Shown here: piece by piece, positions 16,083-31,506 of the stretch
Layout of the letters: each line of letters begins with the position of its first letter
How positions within the stretch are numbered: the first letter of the stretch is position 1
DNA from: Candidatus Heimdallarchaeota archaeon
Lineage (GTDB): Archaea > Asgardarchaeota > Heimdallarchaeia > Hodarchaeales > Hodarchaeaceae
Direction: 5' to 3'
DNA length: 33,107 nucleotides
Assembly (NCBI GenBank): GCA_020351745.1
Contig: CP070665.1
Coordinates: forward strand, 1,221,371-1,254,477
The notes under the pieces: generated by a model
The model's database searches: none
Told to the model about the DNA's origin: nothing
What the model saw: only the letters and a program-made list of their open reading frames with translations
Position numbers and translations under genes: made by a program

Positions 16083-17360
16083 ATGTTCAATATGCTTGAA
16101 ATTAGGTTTGTAGACATTCACGGAACATTAAAAGCTATGAATCTCCCAGTCACAGTTGAAGAAATTAGCACTGCAACTACCGACCCTGTTTTTTCTGAAG
16201 GAATAAACATTGATGGCAGTTCTGTTGCAGGTTTCACATCATTAGAGAATTCTGATTTACATTTATTACCTATCCCAGACAGTTTATTCGAATTACCTTA
16301 CACAGATGAACCTAAATTAGCAGTTATGTGTGAAATTCGACAAGATGGGTCAATTTTTGAGGGGGATACCCGCTCTCAGTTACGAAGTATAATTGAGAAG
16401 CGTCTTACGACTAAAGGACTAACCCTCAAGATTGGACCAGAACCAGAATTTTATCTTTTCAAAGATAATGTCCCTGTTGACCAAGGACAATATGCAGATA
16501 TCTTTCCTAATGCTATTGTTGAAGGAACCGTTAAACGATTCTCTCAATACCTAACAAAAGCCCTAATACACCCCAAAGTTCACCATCATGAAGTAGGACC
16601 AGGTCAGTATGAAATAGAAATCGGATATGAAGAAGCGCTTCGAATAGCAGACATCATAGTCACTTATAAAGCAATCATTAGAGCATTAGCTGCTAAATCA
16701 GGCCCCTATACTGCGACATTTATGCCTAAGCCCTTCATTGAAGAGGCAGGAAATGGAATGCATTGTCACCTTTCATTATGGGAAGGCACTGAAAACCTTT
16801 TTGCGACTTCTGAATCAAACAAGCTCTCATCAATAGCTGAACATTTCATGGCTGGGATCTTAGAACATGCTCAAGCCATGACAGTGTTGGTAGCACCAAC
16901 TGTAAATTCCTATAAGAGATTAGTTCCTGGTTATGAAGCACCAGTTTATGTCGCTTGGGGGCCTCTTAATCGTTCTGCATTAATACGGGTTCCAATGTTT
17001 AATATTCCTCAACTTGCGCGGTTTGAATACCGTTGTCCTGATCCGAGTTGCAATCCATATCTTGCTCTTATCTCCATTGTGACTGCAGGAATGGATGGGG
17101 TCGAACGTGAACTCGAACTGCCCCCACCAGTGAAAAGGAATATTTACAGATTATCATCAAAGGAAAGAGAAGAATTAGATATAAGTACGCTTCCAGGAAA
17201 CCTTTTTGAGGCTCTTTCTTTTCTCGAAAAAGATAAGCTTCTGTGTGACGCGCTTGGTGATCATATTTGCGAAAAATTTTTCCAGTTGAAGAAAGAAGAA
17301 TGGCTCCAATATTCTACACAGGTCACGGATTGGGATTGGAAGAATTATCTTAAGGTTTAA
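16083..17360 (+). CDS. Glutamine-synthetase-family enzyme, copy 1
   Basis: A 425-residue enzyme with the GSI beta-grasp N-terminus (NIDGSSVAGF at 42-51) and catalytic domain. These enzymes form a gamma-glutamyl phosphate with ATP and then an amide with ammonia or an amine. Visible are metal ligands in GPEPEFYLF (118-126) and VGPGQYEIE (171-179), MPKPFIEEAGNGMHCH (214-229, His227), NSYKRLVPGYEAPVY and FEYRCPDPSCNPYLAL. In the signature loop the first Asn of canonical NGSGMH is Ala (AGNGMH); it still fits the broad GS pattern but could mean an amine other than ammonia. No clear adenylylation Tyr is seen. An AAGGAG site lies 10 bases before the ATG. The gene is convergent with copy 2; the ends are 15 bases apart. 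Confidence 0.86.
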   Translation: MFNMLEIRFVDIHGTLKAMNLPVTVEEISTATTDPVFSEGINIDGSSVAGFTSLENSDLHLLPIPDSLFELPYTDEPKLAVMCEIRQDGSIFEGDTRSQLRSIIEKRLTTKGLTLKIGPEPEFYLFKDNVPVDQGQYADIFPNAIVEGTVKRFSQYLTKALIHPKVHHHEVGPGQYEIEIGYEEALRIADIIVTYKAIIRALAAKSGPYTATFMPKPFIEEAGNGMHCHLSLWEGTENLFATSESNKLSSIAEHFMAGILEHAQAMTVLVAPTVNSYKRLVPGYEAPVYVAWGPLNRSALIRVPMFNIPQLARFEYRCPDPSCNPYLALISIVTAGMDGVERELELPPPVKRNIYRLSSKEREELDISTLPGNLFEALSFLEKDKLLCDALGDHICEKFFQLKKEEWLQYSTQVTDWDWKNYLKV

Positions 17361-17375
17361 TGCATATTAGCACTT

Positions 17376-18683
17376 TTAACAATCTAAGTATTGAGATATT
17401 TCCCAAGTAGTAATTTCTTGTTTTTCAAAGCTATGTTCATTGGTAAAATCTAACCACTCATTCATTCGGGCTTCATAATATTCCTGATGAAGAGCTGTCC
17501 CAAGGATCTCCTTTGCAAGAGAACTATTTTTAAATTCCATTAAAGCATCTTTAAGAGATCTAGGTAATAACTCTACTCCTTTTTCTTCGAGCTGCTTTAG
17601 ACTGAGGGCGTCTGCATCAAAATTTGCTTCTTCAGGTGGTTCCAGCTTCTTTCTTACACCCTCTAGACCAGCTTTAAGGAGAAAAGCTAAGGTGAAATAA
17701 ACATTTGTTGCAGCATCTGGAGCACGATATTCCAACCTTCCTGCCTCATAGCCAGGCACCCGAATCAGAGCAGTACGATTTGCAATCCCCCATGTTTTAT
17801 ATACTGGAGCTTCTTTTCCAGGAACCAAGCGTCTATATGAATTTACAATAGGATTGGTTATAGCAGTAATTTCGCTTGCATGGTTAAGCTGACCTGCAAT
17901 AAAATGAAGTGCGAATTCAGATAATTCATTCTCACTACCCTTGAATAGATCATCAGTAGAGGATCTGACCATTTGATGAATGTGCATCCCATTTCCTGCT
18001 TCATCGATAAAGGGTTTAGGCATGAAAGACACAATCCACTCACTATGATTTAGTGCTACCATTTTAGCGATTTGTTTGAAGTATTGAACACTGTCAGCAG
18101 CTTGAATCACTGGTAATGAATCAAACTCGATTTCGTGTTGACCAGGCCCAACTTCTGAATGGAACGTTTTAAATGGAATACTTAGTTGGTCTAATATTTC
18201 AACAATCATTTTTCGTAGAAAATATCCTTTATCCATTGGGGGTAGAACCATATAAGATGCATTATCCGCAGGTTTGAGATCGGATGTTAGCATATAAAAC
18301 TCCATTTCTGGCCTCGCAAAATATGTTGCTTGGAACCCATCAAACAATTCTTTGTTAATTTCAGCTAGAATACGTCTTGGATCAGCAGCAATCCGTTCGT
18401 GAGTGTCAGTACTACGTAAATCACAAAATACACAGGCAGTATTGTCTTGCCAAGGTACTAAGGTTACTGTAGTAGGGTCGGGAACGATAATCATGTCTGA
18501 TTGTTTTGTCCGTAAGAACCCAATACTACTCCCATCAACTCCAATTTGATCAGCTTTGGCAAAAGAGTATTTTGACATCTCAACTCCTTTAAGATGCCCA
18601 TCTGCACCAGTGAATTGAAGTATGAGATATTTTGTTCCTAGTTTCTCCATCCTTTGAATAACAGAACTTCTTATATCAGACAT
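17376..18683 (-). CDS. Glutamine-synthetase-family enzyme, copy 2
   Basis: A 435-residue paralogue of the gene it faces, but clearly diverged. It keeps GVDGSSIGFLRTKQSDM at the N-terminus, ARPEMEFYM and EVGPGQHEIEF as metal-binding segments, MPKPFIDEAGNGMHIH (221-236), NSYRRLVPGKEAPVY, NRTALIRVPG and LEYRAPDAATNVYFTLA. The serine that follows the histidines in most GS enzymes is Met (HIHQMV), and the region around the bacterial adenylylation Tyr is missing it (ANFDADALS). This copy is therefore the less canonical of the two and may be a gamma-glutamyl-amide ligase for a different amine, such as a polyamine. Paralogous GS genes are common in archaea. A direct functional link with copy 1 is inferred only from position. 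Confidence 0.83.
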   Translation of the reverse strand: MSDIRSSVIQRMEKLGTKYLILQFTGADGHLKGVEMSKYSFAKADQIGVDGSSIGFLRTKQSDMIIVPDPTTVTLVPWQDNTACVFCDLRSTDTHERIAADPRRILAEINKELFDGFQATYFARPEMEFYMLTSDLKPADNASYMVLPPMDKGYFLRKMIVEILDQLSIPFKTFHSEVGPGQHEIEFDSLPVIQAADSVQYFKQIAKMVALNHSEWIVSFMPKPFIDEAGNGMHIHQMVRSSTDDLFKGSENELSEFALHFIAGQLNHASEITAITNPIVNSYRRLVPGKEAPVYKTWGIANRTALIRVPGYEAGRLEYRAPDAATNVYFTLAFLLKAGLEGVRKKLEPPEEANFDADALSLKQLEEKGVELLPRSLKDALMEFKNSSLAKEILGTALHQEYYEARMNEWLDFTNEHSFEKQEITTWEISQYLDC

Positions 18684-24180: not shown

Positions 24181-24525
24181 TTAAGGGTGCGTCCAAACAA
24201 AACCAGAGACTGATTTTCCATCAATAACACGGACTTTTCTCCAAACAGCTTTGAGTTTCATTCCCAACTGGACATCCTCAGGCTCAAGTTCTAGTTGACC
24301 TGTATAACGGACTTCTCCAAGATCAATGATGCCTAAAATGAGCGAAGACTTGTCAATACCTGTAGGTGGAGCTTTCAAAATAGTATACGTAACAAGAGAA
24401 CCTTCAGAAGGAAGCTCTACTTCTTCAAAATCCCGATGTTTGCACTGAAGACAGCGACCATGTTTAGGATAATGAACTTCTCCACAATTCAGACATTTAT
24501 ATCCAATTGGCACTTTCTCAACCAT
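24181..24525 (-). CDS. DUF35 protein: rubredoxin-like zinc ribbon plus OB-fold
   Basis: A 114-residue protein with a zinc ribbon at the N-terminus (Cys11 and Cys14 in CLNC; Cys25 and Cys28 in CLQC) and an OB-fold after it (SLVTYTILKAPPTGI...GQLELEPEDVQLGMKLKAVW). In archaea such proteins bridge acetoacetyl-CoA thiolase and HMG-CoA synthase. In steroid-degrading bacteria they bind Ltp2-type aldolases and acyl-CoA hydratases. The ATG at 24525 is preferred: GGTGA lies 5 bases before it and includes an in-frame GTG at 24534 that a gene finder might take. The gene follows the thiolase-fold gene by about a dozen bases, so the two proteins should form a complex. Confidence 0.85.
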   Translation of the reverse strand: MVEKVPIGYKCLNCGEVHYPKHGRCLQCKHRDFEEVELPSEGSLVTYTILKAPPTGIDKSSLILGIIDLGEVRYTGQLELEPEDVQLGMKLKAVWRKVRVIDGKSVSGFVWTHP

Positions 24526-24536
24526 TATTTTCACCT

Positions 24537-25718
24537 TTAGACTCTTGATAAAATAGTAACGACCACATTGTTGCCAAATCCGCCAAAATTTACAGCATAC
24601 GCATGTTTTGGGTTATTAGGAATTTGACGCTCACCAGCCTCTCCTCTAAGCTGCCAAACTAACTCACAGAGCTGTGCAACTCCTGTTGCTCCTACAGGGT
24701 GCCCACGGGCTTTTAATCCCCCTGAAGGATTGACAGGAAAGCGACCAAAGATTTCAGTTTCACCATTACGAACAGCAAGATGAGCTTTACCTCTTTCAAA
24801 AAATCCTGCAGACTCCAGTTCAGCTAATTCCAAAATTTCAAACGCGTTATGTACTTCAGCAAAATCAATGTTCTCTCTCTTTAATTCAGCCATTGAAAAA
24901 GCCTGATCTGAAGCATGCGTCACTGCTTTGAGAAAAGTTGGATCCTCGCGTTCATGGACAGCCATAGTATCCATACCTTGGCCAGTTCCAGCTAATCTAA
25001 TAAGAGGTTTCTCAGAGATTTCCTGTGCTTTTTCCATTGAACACATTATGATTGAAGCAGCACCATCAGTAACAGGACACATATCATAAAGATGAAGTGG
25101 ATCAGCAATGATGGGGTTATTGATTTTCGCTTCTCGAGATGTTAAAATACCTTCCATGGTAATTTTTTGCTGAATGTGAGCATGAGGATTCTTTAGTCCG
25201 TTCGTATGATTCTTGATTGCAATTCTAGCTAGATCCTCTGATGTAACCCCATATTTATTAAAGTAAATTCTAGCTAACATTGCACCGAGAGCAGGAAAAG
25301 TAATACCATAAATGTATTCAGCCTGAGGATGTGACATAGTGGCAATAAAATCAGTAACTACTGGTCCTGGGGCAACACGCATCTTTTCTCCACCAGTGAC
25401 CATAACGCAGTCGTGAATCCCTGAAGCAATGGCCATATAACCTATTCGAGCAGCAGTCCCGCCTGACGCTGGACCATTCTCGATAGATGCACCAACAGCG
25501 GGAAAAAGATTTAGGTAATCGATTAAAGCAGACCCCAATGCAGTTTGATTATTAATTCGGCCAGCTCCCATATTTGCAACAAATAGAGCATCTATTTGAT
25601 CTGTGTCAGCATCCTCAATAGCATCGAGAGAAGCCTCGGCCATCATTTCGATGAGGGAGCCTTCATAACGTCCCCACCGCCTTCCCATTCCAACACCAAT
25701 AATGGCAACATCACGCAT
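24537..25718 (-). CDS. Thiolase-fold enzyme without the catalytic cysteines (Ltp2/SCP2-like)
   Basis: A 393-residue protein of the archaeal/SCP2-like thiolase superfamily. The CoA-binding and C-terminal motif NPSGGLKARGHPVGATG (330-346, His340) is intact. The nucleophilic Cys expected in an ENACASGG-type motif is replaced: it reads ENGPASGG at 80-87, with Pro83 at the Cys position. The second Cys expected in HDCF is Ala292 (HNAF), and the last motif is NFGGFG. Normal thiolysis or condensation through an acyl-enzyme is therefore unlikely. A DUF35 protein follows, as with the Ltp2 aldolases, which also lack this Cys. The start is the ATG at 25718, overlapping the end of the upstream GNAT gene by 8 bases; a longer open frame to 25928 is a shadow in that gene. 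Confidence 0.85.
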   Translation of the reverse strand: MRDVAIIGVGMGRRWGRYEGSLIEMMAEASLDAIEDADTDQIDALFVANMGAGRINNQTALGSALIDYLNLFPAVGASIENGPASGGTAARIGYMAIASGIHDCVMVTGGEKMRVAPGPVVTDFIATMSHPQAEYIYGITFPALGAMLARIYFNKYGVTSEDLARIAIKNHTNGLKNPHAHIQQKITMEGILTSREAKINNPIIADPLHLYDMCPVTDGAASIIMCSMEKAQEISEKPLIRLAGTGQGMDTMAVHEREDPTFLKAVTHASDQAFSMAELKRENIDFAEVHNAFEILELAELESAGFFERGKAHLAVRNGETEIFGRFPVNPSGGLKARGHPVGATGVAQLCELVWQLRGEAGERQIPNNPKHAYAVNFGGFGNNVVVTILSRV

Positions 25719-26436
25719 TAAACCATTCTTCCTTAGTTTTGCGAGTAATTTGAAATACAACATCCTCAGGAAGTAAAATATTACTATTACAATTCCCCAA
25801 AAGTTCCTCTGGAACGGGTCTTTCACCAAAGAGCCGTTCTGGGACGACATAACCTTCCCAATTCTCTTTTGTGAGACAATAAGAAGGTACTCCACCCAGT
25901 TCATGCTCCACTTCGGGACGTGGTTCAAGTCTTAGTTCTTCCATCCAACGACGGAAGCCAATCGGTGATTCAGCTACAATATACACTTCTTCATTTCCAA
26001 GTAGAAAATGATTTTCCATCTTCGCGACGAATAAATGAGCCCCGACACGAAGCCCTCTCTTAAAAGTCATAGTATGAAGACTTATTCCCACTTTTGGATT
26101 AACGGTCAAGCGACTGTTCACAAGTCCGAGAACCTCACCTGTATTTCCATCTTGACCAAGAATTACATACTCATCATGGACTCTGTAATTTATGTAAGCT
26201 AAAAGTTCTCCCAAAATCCTTGCTCCCACAATATCGTAATACTGAAAGTCTGTCAGTTTTACAATATCATAAAATAATGGAATGACTTGTTTGACTTCGT
26301 CTCGATTAATTTGGCGAACAACCATCTTTGTTCCATCAGCTAAATTGATAAATTTTGAGGGGTAGGGCGTGTTTTCAGGATTTATCTTATTTTGCGGAGG
26401 ACGTAACATTTCTTCATCTACTGACATGGTTTTCAT
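25711..26436 (-). CDS. GNAT-like acetyltransferase domain protein
   Basis: A 241-residue protein. Residues 30-165 resemble a GNAT fold: the opening FINLADGTKMVVRQINRDEVKQVIPLFYDI is like the start of GNAT domains that begin with DGT.V.IRPI..ED, and strands GEVLGLVNSRLTV and EEVYIVAESPIGFRRWMEEL follow. A clear acetyl-CoA pyrophosphate loop (R/Q-x-x-G-x-G/A) is hard to place; RGLRVGAHL at 127-135 is the best candidate. The last 70 residues (CLTKENWEGYVVPERLFGERP onward) do not fit the GNAT core. It is the first gene of an operon with the thiolase-fold and DUF35 genes, which suggests a CoA-ester substrate. Start at ATG 26436 or 26427 is unresolved. Confidence 0.6.
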   Translation of the reverse strand: MKTMSVDEEMLRPPQNKINPENTPYPSKFINLADGTKMVVRQINRDEVKQVIPLFYDIVKLTDFQYYDIVGARILGELLAYINYRVHDEYVILGQDGNTGEVLGLVNSRLTVNPKVGISLHTMTFKRGLRVGAHLFVAKMENHFLLGNEEVYIVAESPIGFRRWMEELRLEPRPEVEHELGGVPSYCLTKENWEGYVVPERLFGERPVPEELLGNCNSNILLPEDVVFQITRKTKEEWFNA

Positions 26437-30802: not shown

Positions 30803-30966
30803 ATCAAATTTAGCATCTCTTAAAAGTCAACTAAATCTCTTCAGATTCAGTTGATATTAGGATTTCTCTTGATCAGATCGGGTAATTAAAACGAAAATAT
30901 TGGGAATCAATCCAAATATCAATTTCTCTATGACTGAAAGCTGAAGTCTAGAAGATAGTGTGCTTT

Positions 30967-31506
30967 ATGACTAAGTTCATTTTTAAAATTGTTCTTATTG
31001 GGGATGGTGCTGTTGGTAAAACGTCAATTCGTCGTCGATATATGGGAGAAGGCTTTCAAACGGATTTTCTCGCAACAATGGGAGCAGACTTTACGTATCT
31101 TGAAAATCAAATTGATGAACATGAGATTAAGTGGCAGATTTGGGATCTAGCAGGACAACCAGCATTTAGAAATGTCATGAAGGCCTATTTTAAGGGCAGT
31201 ATGGGAGCGTTAGCGGTTTACGACGTTTCCCAACCTAAAACACTAGAAGGTATTGATTCTTGGATCCAAGAAGCTCAATTCCATGCAGAGACATTTCCAG
31301 AATTACCCGTTGTATTAGTAGGAAACAAGATTGATCTAAGAGAAGAAATTCCTAATTGTGTAAAAACAATAAGTGGATTTATCAAAGCAAAATCATTGAA
31401 TGCAGAGTTCATTGAAACTTCAGCAAAAACAGGTGAGAACATCCCTGACGCTTTTACTAGACTAGCACACCAGATCATCTCAAAGACTAATCTCGAAGAT
31501 GAATGA
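30967..31506 (+). CDS. Small GTPase of the Ras superfamily, Rab-like
   Basis: A 179-residue protein holding every G motif: G1 GDGAVGKTS (12-20), G2 Thr37 in LATMGADF, G3 DLAGQ (60-64) with the catalytic Gln64, G4 NKID (120-123) and G5 ETSAKTG (150-156). The pattern (TMGADF, WDLAGQPAFR) is that of the Rab/Ras-like GTPases that are numerous in Asgard archaea. The protein ends in SKTNLEDE with no Cys, so it is not prenylated and must reach membranes through partners, if at all. The ATG at 30967 is preferred over an in-frame GTG at 30958 as it gives the normal N-terminus. No roadblock, GAP or GEF gene is clearly recognisable next to it. Confidence 0.92.
   Translation: MTKFIFKIVLIGDGAVGKTSIRRRYMGEGFQTDFLATMGADFTYLENQIDEHEIKWQIWDLAGQPAFRNVMKAYFKGSMGALAVYDVSQPKTLEGIDSWIQEAQFHAETFPELPVVLVGNKIDLREEIPNCVKTISGFIKAKSLNAEFIETSAKTGENIPDAFTRLAHQIISKTNLEDE

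Follow-up and report, generated by a model that had tools for sequence, protein, structure and literature searches.

The window, i.e., the whole stretch of DNA analysed here, comprises 33,107 nucleotides of contig CP070665.1 from Candidatus Heimdallarchaeota archaeon. The host had been taken for an archaeon in a preliminary description of the window, and its nearest named relatives indeed belong to the Hodarchaeales (Asgard). The reverse strand carries a three-gene unit, whose genes and active-site codons are listed below.

25711..26436, reverse strand: GNAT-like protein of 241 aa, encoded at the head of the three-gene unit (from fold matches and co-occurrence in the genus)
24537..25718, reverse strand: thiolase-fold protein lacking the catalytic Cys, 393 aa, start codon ATG at 25718
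25470..25472, reverse strand: Pro83 codon at the nucleophilic-Cys position, EAACASGG being replaced by ENGPASGG (from alignments to Cys thiolases)
25176..25178, reverse strand: His181 codon (NPHAHIQ), invariant in the Cys-free clade and mostly Gln in Cys thiolases
24840..24851, reverse strand: HNAF, His290-Phe293, corresponding to HDCF, with Ala292 in place of the second Cys and His290 kept (from alignments)
24699..24701, reverse strand: His340 codon in GHPVGATG, the retained thiolase His (from alignments)
24181..24534, reverse strand: DUF35 protein (zinc ribbon and OB fold), 117 aa, GTG start
24442..24495, reverse strand: four zinc-ribbon Cys of the DUF35 protein, C14, C17, C28 and C31, CxxC...CxxC (from the translation)

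The last 8 nt of the GNAT-like gene are at the same time the first 8 nt of the thiolase-fold gene, which is separated from the downstream DUF35 gene by 2 nt. The thiolase-fold protein is recognized by the Pfam models Thiolase_C_1 (134 bits) and Thiolase_N (68.7 bits). The four-cysteine DUF35 protein noted earlier directly downstream was confirmed by this spacing, by the cysteines listed and by the match to OB_ChsH2_C (38.2, cut-off 27.1); the zf-ChsH2 score (22.2) lies slightly below its cut-off (23.2). No Pfam family matches the GNAT-like protein at the usual threshold, and almost all best fold matches of its low-confidence model (AlphaFold2, pLDDT 50) are GNAT enzymes. The AlphaFold2 model of the thiolase-fold protein, built with seven sequences, has a pLDDT of 31, too low for active-site geometry. 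Elsewhere, the window contains a convergent pair of glutamine-synthetase-like genes (16083-18683), identified by eye only and separated by 15 bp, and a gene for a Ras-family small GTPase (30958-31506, Pfam 150 bits), a family typical of Asgard archaea.

In thiolases, the nucleophilic Cys and its backbone NH perform acyl transfer, the second Cys is the base, and a pair of His stabilizes the enolate. As claimed in the preliminary description, both catalytic Cys are absent from the window protein, being aligned with Pro83 and Ala292, and the His of the CoA-end motif is intact (His340 of GHP); the alignments revealed no shifted Cys that could take over the role of the nucleophile. In a 12-sequence alignment of the Cys-free clade (see below), His290, Ala292, His340 and His181 are invariant. 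Within the clade, position 83 is occupied by P, T or S, with no Cys, Ser or Thr conserved there throughout. The HN of HNAF is confined to the window protein and its closest relative, the remaining orthologues having HDAF. The missing second Cys alone is unremarkable, because HDAF is also found in the Cys-bearing thiolase 7yvy.

Our survey was limited to genomes of Asgard archaea and of a small second phylum, and families are given by anonymous labels (e.g., f19). Counting the window's own genome, eight members of the genus carry the thiolase-fold gene, one copy being a fragment without the motif. The six complete congeners (84-89% identity to the window protein) all have ENGPASG, the 22 loci in Asgard genomes outside the genus (49-54% identity) all have NGPASG, and the relative from the second phylum has NGTASG. 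The nucleophilic Cys is thus absent in every orthologue read at this position (seven in the genus with the window, 22 other Asgard, one from the second phylum), so that errors of sequencing or reading frame do not account for its loss. Among the other thiolase homologues in the class, the majority retain the nucleophilic Cys, yet it is missing from several separate groups; hence the loss is recurrent. Among these, two groups from Heimdallarchaeia, one with GNASG and GDPFGATG (L030, L059, L078 and L079) and the other with EASG or GASG (L063, L067, L074 and L077), are nested among Cys thiolases, and several of their members have lost the GHP His as well. The window's own genome encodes one close homologue of the thiolase-fold protein and one classical thiolase; as it is 71.5% complete, absences there carry little weight.

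Nesting within Cys-bearing thiolases would have contradicted the preliminary description, and was not seen. In the first tree, the window protein belongs to a clade of 29 rows, all Cys-free (support 100/93). Among them are members of families f26 and f28 and the Sulfolobus tokodaii protein ST0096 (PDB 4yzo); the branch containing the latter has a support of 98/86. In the second tree, which included 16 clade rows and 19 Ltp2-like proteins gathered by a search with the NF005892 model, the clade stays together (99/96). The Cys-free clade is an old and widespread archaeal family, which in these trees lies outside the Cys-bearing thiolases. ST0096, deposited as a putative acyl-CoA acyltransferase, shares with the window protein His at the His290 and His340 positions and the NPxAHI motif, but differs in having Ser at position 83, HDMA where others have HDAF, and a long branch; no function of ST0096 was reported in the papers found. 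The NF004720 model (thiolase domain-containing, mixed subfamily; cut-off 420) scores the window protein at 415.5, four clade members at 427-488 and one at 414, and it also accepts Cys thiolases (529 for the L009 protein). The archaeal acetoacetyl-CoA thiolase equivalog NF053570 yields 357 against a cut-off of 600. With the archaeal acetoacetyl-CoA thiolases that have a DUF35 partner (6esq, NF053570; 7yvy, overall the closest solved sequence), the window protein has in common the fold, the partner and the His of HDxF and of GHP; it differs from them in lacking the nucleophilic and second Cys and in its gene partners.

The preliminary description had likened the pair to Ltp2-type aldolases. Ltp2 and Sal rely on the catalytic Tyr of YDHF/YDCY and have a DUF35 partner (PMC12329534). 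They resemble the window pair in this partner and in the thiolase fold without nucleophilic Cys, but their catalytic Tyr has no counterpart in the clade: in the alignment, the Tyr position of YDxF/YDCY is His in all 16 clade rows and Tyr in 19/19 Ltp2-like rows, which also lack the thiolase GHP-GATG motif (19/19). The Ltp2 family model NF005892 scores the window protein at 151.4 versus a cut-off of 469, and the Ltp2-like rows form a separate clade (100/100) in the second tree. Membership in the Ltp2/Sal family was therefore rejected, and as a family claim the analogy fails, although a sister relation of the Cys-free clade to the Ltp2-like proteins is not rejected by the AU test (p = 0.194). 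Thus, a Cys-free thiolase homologue and a nearby DUF35 gene are by themselves insufficient to call an Ltp2-type aldolase. Tandem pairs of Cys-free thiolase-fold genes were observed in five other loci (L056:1968-4367, L065:1075-3482, L070:1974-4354, L072:1965-4354 and L182:6671-9034); one partner in each carries YDPF, which puts a Tyr where Ltp2/Sal have the catalytic one, and its grouping with the Ltp2-like proteins is weak (66/89). By their residues, these pairs are better candidates for archaeal aldolases than the window protein.

The order GNAT-like, thiolase-fold, DUF35 is that of the Hodarchaeales unit. The GNAT-like gene is always upstream in the genus, being present in exactly the eight members that have the thiolase-fold gene and absent from the four that do not. 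The DUF35 gene adjoins the thiolase-fold gene in 6/6 complete congener loci and also in other lineages. Outside the genus, in other Asgard lineages and in the second phylum, the pair adjoins a mutase gene of the methylmalonyl-CoA mutase (MCM) type, and a thiolase-fold gene followed by DUF35 and an acyl-CoA mutase is a recurrent arrangement in several Asgard families. Where both genes were located (38 related, hence not independent, genomes, for which the calculated chance value presumes too much independence), they are at most 25 kb apart in 22, always with the mutase downstream and in the same orientation, and in 10 of these 22 the space between them suffices for DUF35 alone; in the remaining 16 genomes they are on different contigs (14) or far apart on one contig (2). 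An MCM match is present in 57/60 thiolase-positive genomes. In the window's own genus the mutase is not kept next to the pair, the partner there being the GNAT-like gene. In two loci of families that we take to be Loki-type (L188:4952-17410 and L189:5116-15515), Ras-like small GTPase genes and other genes separate the thiolase-fold gene from the DUF35-mutase pair.

At the positions where 2-hydroxyisobutyryl-CoA mutase, the best PDB match of the linked mutases, has Ile/Gln, these have the Tyr/Arg of the MCM type, and the substrate assignment suggested by that match was rejected on these grounds; a second mutase in L141 has Phe/Gln, as in isobutyryl-CoA mutase. The roles of these residues are presumably those generally accepted for the family. 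Genes for the B12-binding subunit, MeaB and BtuR lie alongside in L133 and L141, the latter also having an epimerase gene. A 2-oxoacid:ferredoxin oxidoreductase is encoded immediately upstream in L134, and genes for ADP-forming acyl-CoA synthetases are found nearby in several loci. The mutase link is new here for the Cys-free thiolase-DUF35 pair: our literature search found no paper connecting DUF35, thiolase and methylmalonyl-CoA mutase, and none for Hodarchaeales either.

In other Asgard lineages, MmdA (PF01039), the biotin-dependent methylmalonyl-CoA decarboxylase/transcarboxylase, is encoded near the mutase; it shares this location with the pair but has an unrelated fold and needs biotin. 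A PF01039 carboxyltransferase is present in only eight of the 60 Asgard genomes that are thiolase-positive, so that in the other 52 the methylmalonyl-to-propionyl step is left without the usual enzyme. The eight all belong to the window's genus. There, the PF01039 protein, as seen in G005, differs from MmdA (323 bits versus 880 for an f28 protein), and its gene is accompanied by those for crotonase, biotin carrier and biotin carboxylase. Clade members of f26, f28 and G231 occur in genomes having an MmdA-type carboxyltransferase, in f26 and f28 inside the carboxyltransferase (propionyl-CoA carboxylation) clusters themselves. Genes for a pyruvate/oxaloacetate carboxyltransferase (5S-like, a transcarboxylase subunit) and for a biotin carrier immediately precede the clade member in f28 (L172, L177 and L184), where a neighbouring DUF35 gene is lacking. 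Replacement of the biotin carboxyltransferase by the pair as a general rule is weakened by these MmdA-type clusters and by PF01039 in G231; it holds only for families f12-f16, f19 and a single f20 case. Moreover, since this contrast tracks a few deep lineages, it is confounded by ancestry.

Judging from gene order and active-site residues, the Cys-free pair probably works at the methylmalonyl-/propionyl-CoA node. We propose that the window pair is a CoA-thioester enzyme that would have kept nothing of thiolase chemistry but its enolate half. General thiolase structure suggests that Pro83 would also deprive the acyl-enzyme oxyanion hole of its backbone NH; acyl transfer would be lost, while a His-His pocket holding the thioester or its enolate would remain. 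Thiolysis by the normal route is unlikely in such an enzyme, and this part of the preliminary description stands with the loss of both Cys; the aldol cleavage or formation suggested alongside is one among several fitting enolate reactions. As the His pair is all that is kept, the chemistry left would be decarboxylation, for which no base is needed, or aldol cleavage, for which one is.

Our best guess, a tentative one, is decarboxylation of methylmalonyl-CoA to propionyl-CoA. The mutase would turn succinyl-CoA into methylmalonyl-CoA, the pair would decarboxylate the latter with neither nucleophile nor base, as the KS-Q decarboxylases do, and DUF35 would hold CoA and complete the active site. 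In KS-Q, which is Cys-free and decarboxylates (methyl)malonyl thioesters, two His coordinate the substrate carboxyl (PMC12267109). The KS-Q decarboxylases (e.g., GfsA KSQ) share with the window protein the thiolase-superfamily fold, the loss of the nucleophilic Cys and the two retained His, but act on ACP-bound substrates within polyketide synthases, so that the likeness would be one of analogy alone. Trypanosome SLP, which likewise lacks the nucleophile, decarboxylates malonyl-CoA weakly, as stated in PMC12329534. The route from succinyl-CoA via methylmalonyl-CoA to propionyl-CoA is coherent if methylmalonyl-CoA is decarboxylated by something, and crotonase-type decarboxylases may be an alternative to one of thiolase fold. 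That the Cys-free thiolase-fold protein and DUF35 form a biotin-independent methylmalonyl-CoA decarboxylase closing this route in Asgard archaea without biotin carboxyltransferase is possible but rather doubtful. Beside the transcarboxylase subunit and biotin carrier of f28 a plain decarboxylase would be wasteful, which counts against the decarboxylase reading, as does the missing mutase link in the window's genus.

It is less likely that the pair is an aldolase at the same node, interconverting a 2-methyl-3-hydroxyacyl-CoA with propionyl-CoA and an aldehyde and thereby feeding propionyl-CoA into the methylmalonyl route. An absent nucleophile with a retained enolate pocket suits such chemistry, yet His290 or some other residue would have to replace the Ltp2/Sal Tyr, which is His in every clade member. 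The DUF35 partner, common to Ltp2 and Sal, and the unrejected sister relation to Ltp2-like proteins argue for an aldolase, and so does the position of clade members at the propionyl-CoA carboxylation clusters of f26 and f28; however, no aldehyde-handling gene was recognized in the neighbourhoods read, and in lineages without carboxyltransferase the propionyl-CoA would not reach the linked mutase.

Similarly improbable is a pseudo-thiolase, that is, a non-catalytic CoA-binding or scaffolding subunit assembling a mutase or carboxylase complex via DUF35. Divergent members with 42-54% identity to the window protein still share an invariant His290 and His340 and a large part of the thiolase core, a conservation that would be needless for a pure scaffold. 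The variable position 83 and the coupling of the clade member to the 5S-like and biotin carrier genes in f28 would fit a scaffold, as would some Loki-type genomes, which keep DUF35 alone beside the mutase with the thiolase gene several kb off. DUF35 tethers the enzymes in the thiolase/HMG-CoA synthase complex, as discussed in PMC12329534.

An acyltransferase or thiolase still working through another nucleophile, as the closeness to thiolase 7yvy might suggest, is very unlikely given Pro83, the lost second Cys and the lack of a conserved Cys, Ser or Thr at position 83 across the clade. Least credible is an Ltp2/Sal-type aldolase proper, for which the Cys-free thiolase fold and the DUF35 neighbour speak and against which stand the missing Tyr motif, the kept GHP His, the separate clade and the low family score (151 versus 469).

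A family annotated so far merely as thiolase-domain proteins thus gains a metabolic address beside methylmalonyl-CoA mutase. Should the decarboxylase reading be true, it would add an enzyme class and explain how propionate could be formed by Asgard lineages in which biotin carboxyltransferases are missing. As the biotin enzymes have served to score Asgard archaea for propionate fermentation (PMC7015854), lineages using a biotin-independent decarboxylase would have been overlooked.
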